A DNA stretch of 36,922 bases from an uncultured Bacilli bacterium (lineage in GTDB: Bacteria; Bacillota_I; Bacilli_A; RF39; UBA660), in assembly GCA_947628895.1 (NCBI GenBank), contig CANRBS010000007.1:1-36922 (forward strand), given 5' to 3'. Position 1 is the first letter of the stretch, and the number at the start of each line of letters is the position of its first letter. Shown piece by piece: positions 122-14,159 of this stretch. The position numbers and the translations under genes are program-made. The notes under the pieces were generated by a model. The model worked only from the letters and a program-made list of their open reading frames with translations, searched no databases and was not told the origin of the DNA.

Positions 122-1897
122 TTACTCCATTACTACTTTTATTCTTCTTACTCCTGCAGAAGATGATTCTTCTTTAATAATTTTCATATGTGTAAGTTCA
201 CCTGTATTTTTAACATGAGGTCCTCCACATATTTCTTTTGATACGGTGCCTATAGTATATACAAATACAGTGTCTCCATATTTATCACTGAATGTGCCTT
301 CTGCTCCACTATTAATAGCGGCTTCTTTACTCATTTCTTCTTTGATTACAGCTATTTTTTCATCTATATGTTTATTTACAATATCTTCTACTCTTTTCTT
401 TTCTTCATCTGTCATTTTATGATCAAGTGGAAAATCAAATCTTAATCTTTCTGGTGTAATATTACATCCTTTTTGATAAACACTATTTCCAAATACTTCT
501 TTTAATGCAGCAAGAGTTAAGTGTGCTAGTGTATGATATTTAGTACTCATTTCACTAGTATCAGCAAGTCCTCCTTTAAATTCCCCAGCAGATGCTGTTC
601 TTGATAAATCTTGATGTTCCTTAAATTTTTGTTTAAATCCTTCAGTGTCTACTTTTAAATTCTTTTCTTCTGCCATTTCAATAGTAAATTCAAGTGGAAA
701 ACCAAATGTATCAAATAATTTAAATGCAGTAGCCCCATCAATCATATCACCATTTAAATTTGAAACAGCTTTATTAAACATTTTTACTCCACTATTTAAT
801 GTTTTATTAAATTTACTTTCTTCATCAGTTAAACCTTTAATAATTATATCTTTATTTTTTAATAATTCTTTATAATCATCTTTATAATAATCAATTACTA
901 TATTAGCAAGACTTTCTAAAATAGATTCTTCTACTCCAAGATTTTTAATATATCTTATCATTCTTCTAATAATTCTTCTTAATATATATCCAGCACCAAC
1001 ATTAGATGGTAGCATACCATGTTCGTCTCCTAATATAAATACAGAAGTTCTAATATGATCTAGAATTACTCTAAATTCTTTTAAATTATCTTCATATTTT
1101 TTATTTGTTAATTCTTCTAATTTATTTCTTAAAAGTACAAATATTTCTATATCATATACTGATTTTAAATTGTTATAAACAACTAGTGTTCTTTCAACTC
1201 CCATACCAGTATCTACATTCTTATGTTCAAGTGGTGTGTATTTTCCATTTTCTGCTTTGTATTGCATAAATACATCATTCCATATTTCTAAATATTTACC
1301 ACAATCACATGATGGATCACATTTATCACTACATTTTTCTTTACCTGTATCAAAAAACATTTCAGAGTCTGGTCCACAAGGTCCACTACCACTTCCAAGT
1401 TCCCACCAATTATTTTCTTTTGGTAAATAGAATATTTGATTTTTTGTTAGTCCACACTCTTCCCAAATTTTAGCAGACTCACTATCTCTTTGTACATCTT
1501 CATTTCCTTCAAATACTGATACAGAAATTTTAGAGGCAGGTATATTTAAATATTTTTCACTAGTTAGAAATTCATAAGACCAAGGTATCATTTCTTCTTT
1601 AAAATAGTCTCCTAGTGACCAGTTACCAAGCATTTCAAAAAATGTTAAGTGTGAATTATCTCCAACACTTTCAATATCACTAGTTCTAATACATTTTTGT
1701 ACATCAGTAAGTCTTCTTCCACTTGGATGAGTTTCCCCTAATAAATATGGAACTAATGGATGCATACCAGCTGTTGTAAATAAAACAGTTCCATCATTTT
1801 CAGGAATTAGGCTTGCACTTGGTATTACTTTATGACCTTTACTTTCAAAAAAATCAAAATACATATTAATTAATTCTCTTCTTGTTAATGTTTTCAT
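122..1897 (-). CDS. alaS: Alanyl-tRNA synthetase, short form lacking the C-terminal C-Ala domain
   Basis: Catalytic core (GSGSGPCGPDSEMF, NVDTGMGVERT) and editing domain (HTLAH, CGGPH); ends right after the editing domain. Start set at MKTLTRREL with AAAGG upstream; the track ORF extends into the T-box terminator. Confidence 0.93.
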   Translation of the reverse strand: MKTLTRRELINMYFDFFESKGHKVIPSASLIPENDGTVLFTTAGMHPLVPYLLGETHPSGRRLTDVQKCIRTSDIESVGDNSHLTFFEMLGNWSLGDYFKEEMIPWSYEFLTSEKYLNIPASKISVSVFEGNEDVQRDSESAKIWEECGLTKNQIFYLPKENNWWELGSGSGPCGPDSEMFFDTGKEKCSDKCDPSCDCGKYLEIWNDVFMQYKAENGKYTPLEHKNVDTGMGVERTLVVYNNLKSVYDIEIFVLLRNKLEELTNKKYEDNLKEFRVILDHIRTSVFILGDEHGMLPSNVGAGYILRRIIRRMIRYIKNLGVEESILESLANIVIDYYKDDYKELLKNKDIIIKGLTDEESKFNKTLNSGVKMFNKAVSNLNGDMIDGATAFKLFDTFGFPLEFTIEMAEEKNLKVDTEGFKQKFKEHQDLSRTASAGEFKGGLADTSEMSTKYHTLAHLTLAALKEVFGNSVYQKGCNITPERLRFDFPLDHKMTDEEKKRVEDIVNKHIDEKIAVIKEEMSKEAAINSGAEGTFSDKYGDTVFVYTIGTVSKEICGGPHVKNTGELTHMKIIKEESSSAGVRRIKVVME

Positions 1898-1904
1898 AAA
1901 TATT

Positions 1905-2099
1905 TTCCTTTCAAAATAAAAAGAATGATACAAGGAGTCATATAGACGGTACCATCCTATTTTTAACTTTATTTGATATAACGTATCATACGTGAGTGAT
2001 TAGCTCATTAATTAAAAGTAGCTTCAAATAATATATTTATTAGTTTACACCTTCCACTAACTCTCTTTAAAATATTAATTATTTTACTCGTCTTTCAAT
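1905..2099 (-). promoter_or_regulatory. T-box leader (Ala, specifier GCU) of alaS
   Basis: Minus strand: AGAGAGTTAGTGG stem I motif, TGAAGCTAC (specifier GCT at 2022..2020), T-box AGGATGGTACCGTC (1958..1945), terminator GGATGGTAC...GTATCATTC-TTTTT. Confidence 0.9.
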
Positions 2100-2105
2100 A
2101 AAAAG

Positions 2106-11459: not shown

Positions 11460-11660
11460 AAAAAGAATGGCACTAAGGAGTCATAATGACGGTACCATCC
11501 TTTTATTTTTCTTTATTAAATAACGGGTAACCCCGAGAATATTTACTTAATTTCAATATTCTACTCTGTGGTGTTATTCATATACATATCTTATTAGTTT
11601 TCACCATCCACTAACTCTCTATAAAGAAAAATGTATATTACTTCTCCACTTCATCGCTTT
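11460..11660 (-). promoter_or_regulatory. T-box leader (Asn, specifier AAC) of asnS-gatCAB
   Basis: Minus strand: AGAGAGTTAGTGG, specifier AAC in TGAATAACACC (11575..11573), T-box AAGGATGGTACCGTC, terminator GGATGGTAC...GTGCCATTC-TTTTTTT. Confidence 0.92.
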
Positions 11661-11665
11661 ATTAA

Positions 11666-12109: not shown

Positions 12110-13423
12110 TTATTCAATTATCTTTTTAATATTTAATAAGTTATTTTTTTCTATTTCTATTTGATCTCCACTAATCATATTTTTAAGTATTATAGTATTT
12201 TTAGCTACTTCATCTTCACCTATTAATATTATATACTTATTTTTCATTTTATTAGCATATTTCATTCTTTGTTTAATGCCTTTATTTATATAACATATAT
12301 TAACACTAATGTTTTGATTCTTTAAAATACTATTTATTTCATAAATATATTTATAACTATCACATAATGGAACAATCATTATATCAGATGATGACATATC
12401 ATCTATTTTAATTAAATTAGTTTCTAATAGTTTAGAAAACAATCTTGTAAGTCCAATTGAAGCACCTACACCAGGTAATTTTTTATCTGTATAATATTCT
12501 GCTAAGTTTTCATATCTTCCACCAGAGCATACACTTCCAATACTTTCATAATCATTTAAATATGTTTCATAAACAGTTCCAGTATAATAATCAAGTCCTC
12601 TTGCTATTGTCAAATCAAACTTGTAATTTTTAGTTGGTATACTTCTATTTTCTAAATCATTTAATACGGCTTCTATTTCATTAATTCCTTCATTTATTAA
12701 TTCATTATAATTATATTTTTCTTTTAATACTCTTAATATTTCATCATTAGTTCCATTTAAAGTAATAAAATTAAGTATTTCAGTTATTTTATCATTAGAA
12801 ATATCTAATTTAGATAATTCTTCTTTTACTATTTCTACCCCTATTTTATCAAGTTTATCTATTACTCTTAATATTTCAGTAATTTTATTATCAAGATTTA
12901 AATATTTAAAAAATCCATTTAATATTTTTCTATTATTAATTCTAATAGTAAAATCTGCAATATTTAATTTACTAAATATATCATATATTATATTAATAAT
13001 TTCACTATCATATTTAAGTGGTAATTCATCTTCTGCTATAACATCTATATCACATTGATAGAATTCTCTAAATCTACCTTTTTGAGGTCTTTCACCTCTA
13101 AATACTTTTCCTACTTGATATCTTTTAAATGGAAACACAAGTTCATTACTTCTCATAGAAACATATTTAGCAAGTGGAACTGTTAAATCAAATCTTAATG
13201 ATAAATCATTATCACCTTTATTAAATCTATATATTTGTTTTTCTGTTTCTCCTCCAGCTTTAGCAAGTAATACTTCTGAGTACTCTATAACTGGTGTATC
13301 AAGTGGATAAAACCCATAACTTTTATATGTATCTATTATTATATTTTTAAGTTTTTCAAATACTAATTGTTCTTGTGGATATAATTCCATAAATCCAGAT
13401 AATGTTTTAGGTATTGTTTTCAT
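12110..13423 (-). CDS. hisS: Histidyl-tRNA synthetase
   Basis: FRGERPQKGRFREFYQCDID, TIARGLDYYTGTVYE, GSVCSGGRYENL. Confidence 0.97.
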   Translation of the reverse strand: MKTIPKTLSGFMELYPQEQLVFEKLKNIIIDTYKSYGFYPLDTPVIEYSEVLLAKAGGETEKQIYRFNKGDNDLSLRFDLTVPLAKYVSMRSNELVFPFKRYQVGKVFRGERPQKGRFREFYQCDIDVIAEDELPLKYDSEIINIIYDIFSKLNIADFTIRINNRKILNGFFKYLNLDNKITEILRVIDKLDKIGVEIVKEELSKLDISNDKITEILNFITLNGTNDEILRVLKEKYNYNELINEGINEIEAVLNDLENRSIPTKNYKFDLTIARGLDYYTGTVYETYLNDYESIGSVCSGGRYENLAEYYTDKKLPGVGASIGLTRLFSKLLETNLIKIDDMSSSDIMIVPLCDSYKYIYEINSILKNQNISVNICYINKGIKQRMKYANKMKNKYIILIGEDEVAKNTIILKNMISGDQIEIEKNNLLNIKKIIE

Positions 13424-13479
13424 ATTAATCTTCCTTTCATTATTTATATTTTATCATTTTTAGATTATTTTTTAAATAA

Positions 13480-13510
13480 AAAATTATATGTGAAGTACAC
13501 ATATAATTTT
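13480..13510 (-). terminator. Intrinsic terminator (candidate attenuator) in the hisS leader
   Basis: Minus-strand AAATTATATGTG-TACTT-CACATATAATTT perfect stem followed by TTTT-rich run. Confidence 0.75.
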
Positions 13511-13542
13511 AAAAAGTTTTTAAGTTATAAATGTCTTCTAAT

Positions 13543-13617
13543 TTAAACAATATAAAAGAGGTTCATATTATTATGAACTTGATGATTATTATGATTGTTA
13601 TTAAATAATTTTTTCAT
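13543..13617 (-). CDS. Putative His/Asn-rich leader peptide MKKLFNNNHNNHQVHNNMNLFYIV
   Basis: ATG with GAGG six nt upstream; 24 codons with three CAT; precedes a terminator and hisS. Not in the provided ORF track. Confidence 0.5.
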   Translation of the reverse strand: MKKLFNNNHNNHQVHNNMNLFYIV

Positions 13618-13642
13618 AATTTTCCTCTTTTCTTAATTTAAA

Positions 13643-14110
13643 TTATAATATTAAACATAAATTCTTATCTACTTTATTTTCTTCTTCTCTTAAAGTATTA
13701 ACTCTTTCATTTAATTCATTTATTTCTTTTTCATATTGAAGTATTTTAAATCTTCTATATCTTTCTATACAACTATTTCCAAATGTTGATTTAATATCAT
13801 ATATTGCTTTTTCTCTTTCATGACTACGAGCAATATTGTTATTTTTATTTAATTGTATAGTATAAGCATGAGAATATTCATCCATCATTTCTTCACTACT
13901 AAAAGCACAAAATCCATTAAGTCTTAAAAATAATTCTAAATCAGCTAAATTATAATTTGTTACAAAATGTAATACATCATATATAACACCAGTACCATAT
14001 AATTGTAACTTATTATCTCTAAAAATTTGTTTTCCAGATTGTAATAAAGTATTACTAATAGGATCTTCCCAATATAAATCAAATCTTACATAATTATCAT
14101 TCATACTCAC
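13643..14110 (-). CDS. Hypothetical protein with C-terminal coiled-coil-like segment
   Basis: 155-aa ORF; ILQYEKEINELNERVNTLREEENKV. Confidence 0.7.
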   Translation of the reverse strand: MSMNDNYVRFDLYWEDPISNTLLQSGKQIFRDNKLQLYGTGVIYDVLHFVTNYNLADLELFLRLNGFCAFSSEEMMDEYSHAYTIQLNKNNNIARSHEREKAIYDIKSTFGNSCIERYRRFKILQYEKEINELNERVNTLREEENKVDKNLCLIL

Positions 14111-14159
14111 ATTCTCCTTTAAATGAGTTCTATTATAGCATATTTAATTTAAATGTCAA

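Follow-up and report, generated by a model that had tools for sequence, protein, structure and literature searches.

Comparative sequence evidence suggests that the leader of hisS in an uncultured Bacilli bacterium is probably a histidine-responsive, ribosome-mediated transcription attenuator. Within the whole stretch of DNA that was analysed (36,922 nucleotides, hereafter the window), the region upstream of hisS contains (i) a short ORF with His codons, (ii) an intrinsic terminator and (iii) an antiterminator that shares sequence with the terminator (Table 1). The genus sample comprised 18 genomes, and wider searches covered 388 family genomes and 288 order genomes.

Table 1. Features of the hisS leader and its surroundings in the window
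Feature	Position	Strand	Basis or remark
Leader ORF MKKLFNNNHNNHQVHNNMNLFYIV (24 codons)	13617..13543	minus	Sequence reading, comparison across nine species
His codons of the leader ORF	13591-13593, 13582-13584, 13573-13575	minus	Last two invariant in nine species
GAGG Shine–Dalgarno site, spacer and ATG of the leader ORF	13615..13627	minus	Sequence reading
P1 5' strand AAAAGAG	13625..13631	minus	Comparison; overlaps the leader Shine–Dalgarno site
P1 3' strand CTCTTTT	13554..13560	minus	Comparison; anti-Shine–Dalgarno within the ORF end
P2 hairpin GTTCAT-AATAAT-ATGAAC	13561..13578	minus	Comparison; encloses the third His codon
Antiterminator 5' strand GAAGACAT-T-TATAA	13525..13538	minus	Starts 7 nt past the first base of the leader's stop
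Antiterminator 3' strand TTATATGTGTACTTC	13492..13506	minus	Comparison; equals terminator 5' arm and loop
Intrinsic terminator (hairpin 13510-13480 and T-rich tract)	13474..13510	minus	Sequence, comparison, energy
Extended -10-like box TGATAAAAT, between terminator and hisS	13448..13456	minus	Conserved in leader-bearing and leaderless relatives
hisS, histidyl-tRNA synthetase (437 aa), gene under proposed control	12110..13423	minus	Gene identification
155-aa ORF, between consensus promoter and leader	13643..14110	minus	ORF list
Consensus promoter TTGACA-16-TATAAT, upstream of 155-aa ORF and leader	14132..14159	minus	Promoter scan

Leader ORF and its histidine codons

An earlier note on this DNA had described an ORF with a GAGG-N6-ATG start in the hisS leader, and its reading holds: three of the 24 codons specify His and eight Asn. 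The note had also proposed a conservation check, in which the ORF proves to be kept in eight relatives, each time with a terminator downstream. A translatable ORF that specifies the cognate amino acid and is kept in relatives, as expected of a leader-peptide attenuator, is found in nine species. From the Shine–Dalgarno-preceded ATG to the stop codon the reading frame is open in all nine, and each of the other two frames is interrupted by stops in every one of them. Indels 5' of the last conserved His codon are multiples of three; after that codon, loci L001 and L003 carry a 2-nt indel that shifts the tail of the peptide, and the stop codon still adjoins the antiterminator.

The second and third leader codons for His encode this residue unchanged in all nine species (H-(Q)-V-H) and lie in the most strictly conserved block of the peptide, which includes versions such as MKNLFNNNYSNHQVHNNEPLLYCLN, MKKLFNNNNHNNHQVHNNEPSLFCIK, MKYVVFNNHNNHQVHENEHSLHCNK and MKLLSNNNFNNNNHVHNNEPLLFVHN in relatives. 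The first His position is variable (His, Tyr or Phe). One synonymous change, CAT to CAC, occurs at a conserved His codon (L008) and is accompanied by a compensatory change in the P2 hairpin.

Terminator, antiterminator and leader structure

The stem terminator with a T run that had been reported at 13480..13510 is confirmed; it has 12–13 pairs, a loop of 5–7 nt and a T-rich tail to 13474, and it ends 57 nt (previously given as about 55) upstream of the hisS ATG at 13423. Its energy of -11.3 kcal/mol places it among the strongest combinations of hairpin and T run in the AT-rich window. A simple terminator scan overlooked this hairpin because the scan demands three G–C pairs. In all nine species the terminator lies between the leader ORF and hisS.

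Four elements had gone unseen in the earlier note, namely the antiterminator, a stem between the Shine–Dalgarno and an anti-Shine–Dalgarno sequence (P1), an inner hairpin (P2) and a probable second promoter. Because the 3' strand of the antiterminator is the 5' arm and loop of the terminator, the two structures are mutually exclusive. The antiterminator pairs with the terminator 5' arm or loop in 9/9 species and does so in six sequence versions, i.e. GAAGACAT/GTGT-A-CTTC in the window, CGACATAAT/ATT-AT-ATGTCG in L004, TGACAT/ATGTCA in L006, GAGCGTCA/TGATGTTC in L008, GAAATATCA/TGATATTTC in L009 and TTTGTACAT/ATGTACAAA in L010. Against shuffled linkers the duplexes have p values of 0.005–0.06 each; combined by hand with Fisher's method, which ignores the relatedness of the species, they give p of about 1e-6. 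This covarying antiterminator would supply the half of the mechanism that had been missing.

Both P1 and P2 are supported by compensatory changes. The P1 pairing is AAAAGAG/CTCTTTT in the window and AAAGAAG/CTTCTTT in L004, two of its seven pairs alternate between A–U and G–C among species, and in the window it can be extended outwards with 13635-13644. In P2, the double change from CAT/ATG to CAC/GTG in L008 preserves pairing. The whole leader structure is 95% paired, compared with 41–65% when slid. MAFFT placed P1 1–2 nt out of register because the length of the Shine–Dalgarno–ATG spacer varies; the sequences were therefore realigned by covariance model, which leaves L001 and L003 one base off at the innermost P1 pair. 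Since P1 ties the Shine–Dalgarno site to the tail of its own ORF, it probably restricts leader translation to one or a few rounds per transcript. In the window there is no overlap between P1 and the antiterminator, and read-through might therefore be the default for a leader that is not translated, a point against the attenuator reading.

Geometry and proposed mechanism

In eight of the nine species the antiterminator starts 0–8 nt past the first stop-codon base and 33–37 nt past the third His codon (e.g. 3 and 36 nt, respectively, in L004 and L005). The exception is L010, where it overlaps the ORF end and the distance from the third His codon is 21 nt. In the eight other species, 33–46 nt separate the antiterminator from the second and third His codons upstream of it, a geometry that fits a switch set by ribosome position. 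A ribosome footprint reaches roughly 12–15 nt ahead of the decoded codon; with this spacing, a ribosome at the stop codon should cover the antiterminator and one at the His codons should leave it uncovered. Abundant His-tRNA would then be expected to give termination, and a shortage of it read-through.

Read from this anatomy, the leader may operate as follows. A ribosome would start on the leader ORF before RNA polymerase has finished transcribing the leader. With plentiful charged tRNA-His it would proceed to the stop codon and place its footprint over the antiterminator strand 13538..13525, so that the terminator 13510..13480 could form and transcription would end before hisS. With scarce charged tRNA-His it would stall at the second or third His codon, about 35–45 nt further upstream; the antiterminator strand would then be free to capture the terminator 5' arm and loop, and hisS would be transcribed. 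The output of the HisS enzyme would probably rise when histidine runs short, and a second promoter past the terminator probably provides a basal, unattenuated level.

Occurrence in the genus and family

Ten of the 18 genus genomes share the hisS subtype of the window (63–100% identity), and nine of these ten carry the leader; it is absent from G015 (locus L007). A covariance model of the leader finds exactly one strong copy in each of nine genus genomes, all directly upstream of hisS, no strong copy in the remaining nine of the 18, and no convincing copy outside the genus among the 388 family and 288 order genomes. Weak matches at L168–L171 and L178 are unlike the element when their sequences are inspected, and L177 turned out to be a different leader (type II, see below). 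Half of the genus, including L007 with the same hisS subtype, has no leader, which counts against the attenuator reading. In six leader-bearing species the upstream neighbour is another gene and the leader has its own promoter. This distribution argues that the occurrence of the element is not due to chance.

Two of the weak matches drew attention to a separate arrangement. At L168 (G002:C23) and L169 (G017:C35), around positions 1500–1650, a Cys-rich short ORF, MKNLCNDNFCNIISCIYDCKYFGCDELK, with a terminator-like hairpin behind it immediately precedes a RelA/SpoT gene in two genus genomes; the stringent-response gene may thus be under a Cys leader attenuator.

Aminoacyl-tRNA synthetase genes of Firmicutes are usually under T-box control, and T-boxes are frequent in this genus (9–15 matches per genome in the 18 genomes). 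In the window, asnS has a T-box at 11473..11663, as had been claimed, and a weaker match at 1930..2103 belongs to the gene at 122..1933. Some other genera of the family have T-box motifs upstream of hisS (L011 and others). In the window, the leader of hisS has no match to a T-box (RF00230), to RF00514 His_leader or to any other Rfam covariance model; the lack of a T-box agrees with the earlier note, and a known Rfam family, T-box included, is rejected as the identity of this leader. No T-box was found in the hisS leaders of the nine leader-bearing loci. In addition, histidinol dehydrogenase (HisD) was not found in any of the 18 genus genomes. A hisS leader without a T-box, together with HisD not being found, fits a need to sense histidine supply.

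Alternative explanations

The main caveat concerns the region downstream of the terminator. The spacing between the motif AATGWTAAAAT and the hisS ATG is similar across the nine leader loci, and near-identical TGWTAAAAT boxes precede hisS in the leaderless L007 and L046; the box at 13456..13448 is therefore a probable second hisS promoter. Its transcripts would begin downstream of 13480, the counter-case named in the earlier note, and some or even all hisS expression may in this way escape the attenuator. If hisS were driven mainly from this box, the leader and terminator would merely end upstream transcripts and have little effect on hisS. We consider this unlikely, because the 11-mer is not rare in the AT-rich window (two occurrences against 1.4 expected) and lacks a clear -35, and because a plain terminator leaves the covarying antiterminator, the conserved His codons and the consensus promoter before the leader unexplained. 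In six of the nine species TTGACA-17-TAWTAT (TAATAT or TATTAT) stands directly before the leader. The window-type species (window, L002 and L003) have only a weak match there and no TTGACA promoter directly before the leader, with the 155-aa gene intervening, which counts against the attenuator reading; this gene, which has no Pfam match, precedes the leader only in these species (its ORF end is seen in L002 and L003). That the element is no more than a random ORF followed by the terminator of this 155-aa gene has a negligible probability: AT-rich DNA does favour AAT and CAT codons and weak hairpins, but the same element stands before hisS in the six species with a different upstream gene and their own promoter, and a chance ORF with an ordinary terminator is ruled out by conservation and covariation.

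Strong nucleotide conservation around CATCAAGTTCAT and the stable, covarying P1 and P2 could instead point to an attenuator made of RNA only, in which P1/P2 recognize a ligand, tRNA-His or HisRS, with the ORF as a bystander or regulated only via its sequestered Shine–Dalgarno site. This explanation is improbable in view of the whole-codon indels, the frame kept open in nine species, the synonymous His-codon change and the stop codon beside the antiterminator; moreover, there is no Rfam family match, and no anticodon-loop mimic was seen by eye. The amino acid that is sensed also needs consideration, since the earlier note had proposed stalling at CAU and possibly AAU codons. The conserved ORF and the antiterminator support the His part of that proposal, with two of the three His codons invariant. 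Sensing of asparagine, or of a general slowing of translation, through the many AAT codons would draw on the eight Asn codons, several of which are at conserved positions. However, the Asn richness is partly compositional (AT-rich DNA favours AAT), the gene that follows is hisS, the nearby asnS is equipped with a separate T-box and the two His codons occupy the most strictly kept block, all of which makes asparagine sensing very improbable. Histidine-responsive attenuation is thus the reading we retain.

Comparison with known leaders

The leader resembles the enterobacterial his leader (RF00514) in its His-codon peptide and its mutually exclusive terminator and antiterminator, but has no sequence or structure match to it. 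In the classic enterobacterial leader, a leader stem competes with the antiterminator, whereas P1 and the antiterminator do not overlap here. T-boxes, the usual control of synthetase genes in Firmicutes, occur before the same class of gene (asnS in the window, hisS in L011 and others), but are missing from hisS in the window.

Closer parallels come from Gram-positive bacteria. For Bacillus, predictions by Naville and Gautheret 2010 (PMC2965389) place His leader peptides upstream of hisS* and hisZ, and the authors emphasized that sensing systems switch at hisS. Those leaders likewise combine a short His-codon ORF with a premature terminator before a hisS-family gene and replace a T-box; by description they contain a His stretch, whereas the window leader has a dispersed HNNHQVH, is Asn-rich and pairs its Shine–Dalgarno site with the ORF tail. 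In the survey by Ashniev et al. 2022 (PMC9413887), RF00514 was not found among Firmicutes, but three groups (B. cereus group, Peptostreptococcaceae and Erysipelotrichales) were predicted to control his operons by His attenuators, which also have a His leader peptide, a terminator and an alternative antiterminator. These precede biosynthesis operons and contain three to five His codons in a row; by contrast, the element here precedes hisS in a genus where no HisD was found, and its His codons are dispersed. That only two His codons are invariant, and these non-adjacent, is unlike known His leaders and counts against the attenuator reading.

The literature searched, with partial coverage, yielded no description of this element. 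The principle is known (in Firmicutes, His leaders have been predicted ahead of hisS paralogues and of his operons), and sequence and layout here differ from those described. Distinctive, as judged from the sequence, are the dispersed His codons, a Shine–Dalgarno site masked by the end of the ORF that it serves, and an antiterminator that would lie under the terminating ribosome.

A second type of His leader in the family

Other genera of the family contain another His leader (type II, e.g. MLNQIIKFNHHHNSLHLLIRH; pattern ML..NHHHNSLHLLIRH), followed by a conserved hairpin CAAGTGC-TATTTGT-RGTGCTTG and a terminator (L018, L047, L048, L049, L139, L143, L036 and L179–L207). Its model has matches in 49 of the 388 family genomes, with up to three copies each, upstream of hisS, of an M20 peptidase gene and of genes without a Pfam match. 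No Rfam match was found in the loci tested, and the type II leader has no obvious homology that we could recognize to the element in the window. At L045 (G041), the type II hairpin occurs before hisS together with a shorter peptide, MNRLWKQHIHHLIMGA, and the peptide of this type seems to change faster than its RNA.

Among the genes under type II leaders, a recurrent protein family starting ...KGIVFSNDIKRIL.G.NA.. is found at L187, L189, L192, L199, L202, L203 and L205; its longest tested member (305 aa) has no Pfam match. At L206, the leader is followed by a gene for a 259-aa protein that by eye recalls diaminopimelate-epimerase-like racemases and has no Pfam match.

Implications for histidine sensing

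The genus retains its numerous T-boxes, yet its hisS appears to use a leader peptide. Elsewhere in the family, hisS genes carry a T-box, another His leader type or nothing recognizable, which makes the family a compact test case of sensing-system replacement. Dispersed His codons, easily overlooked by searches for runs, can mark an attenuator.

A broader and more tentative idea is that leader peptides might run a family-wide histidine-supply regulon, in which at least some members appear unable to make histidine, the genus studied here uses a leader with dispersed His codons that hides its Shine–Dalgarno site after first use, and other genera use the unrelated type II leader. If this is true, the type II part of the regulon would span hisS, M20 peptidase and several uncharacterized genes in those 49 genomes.
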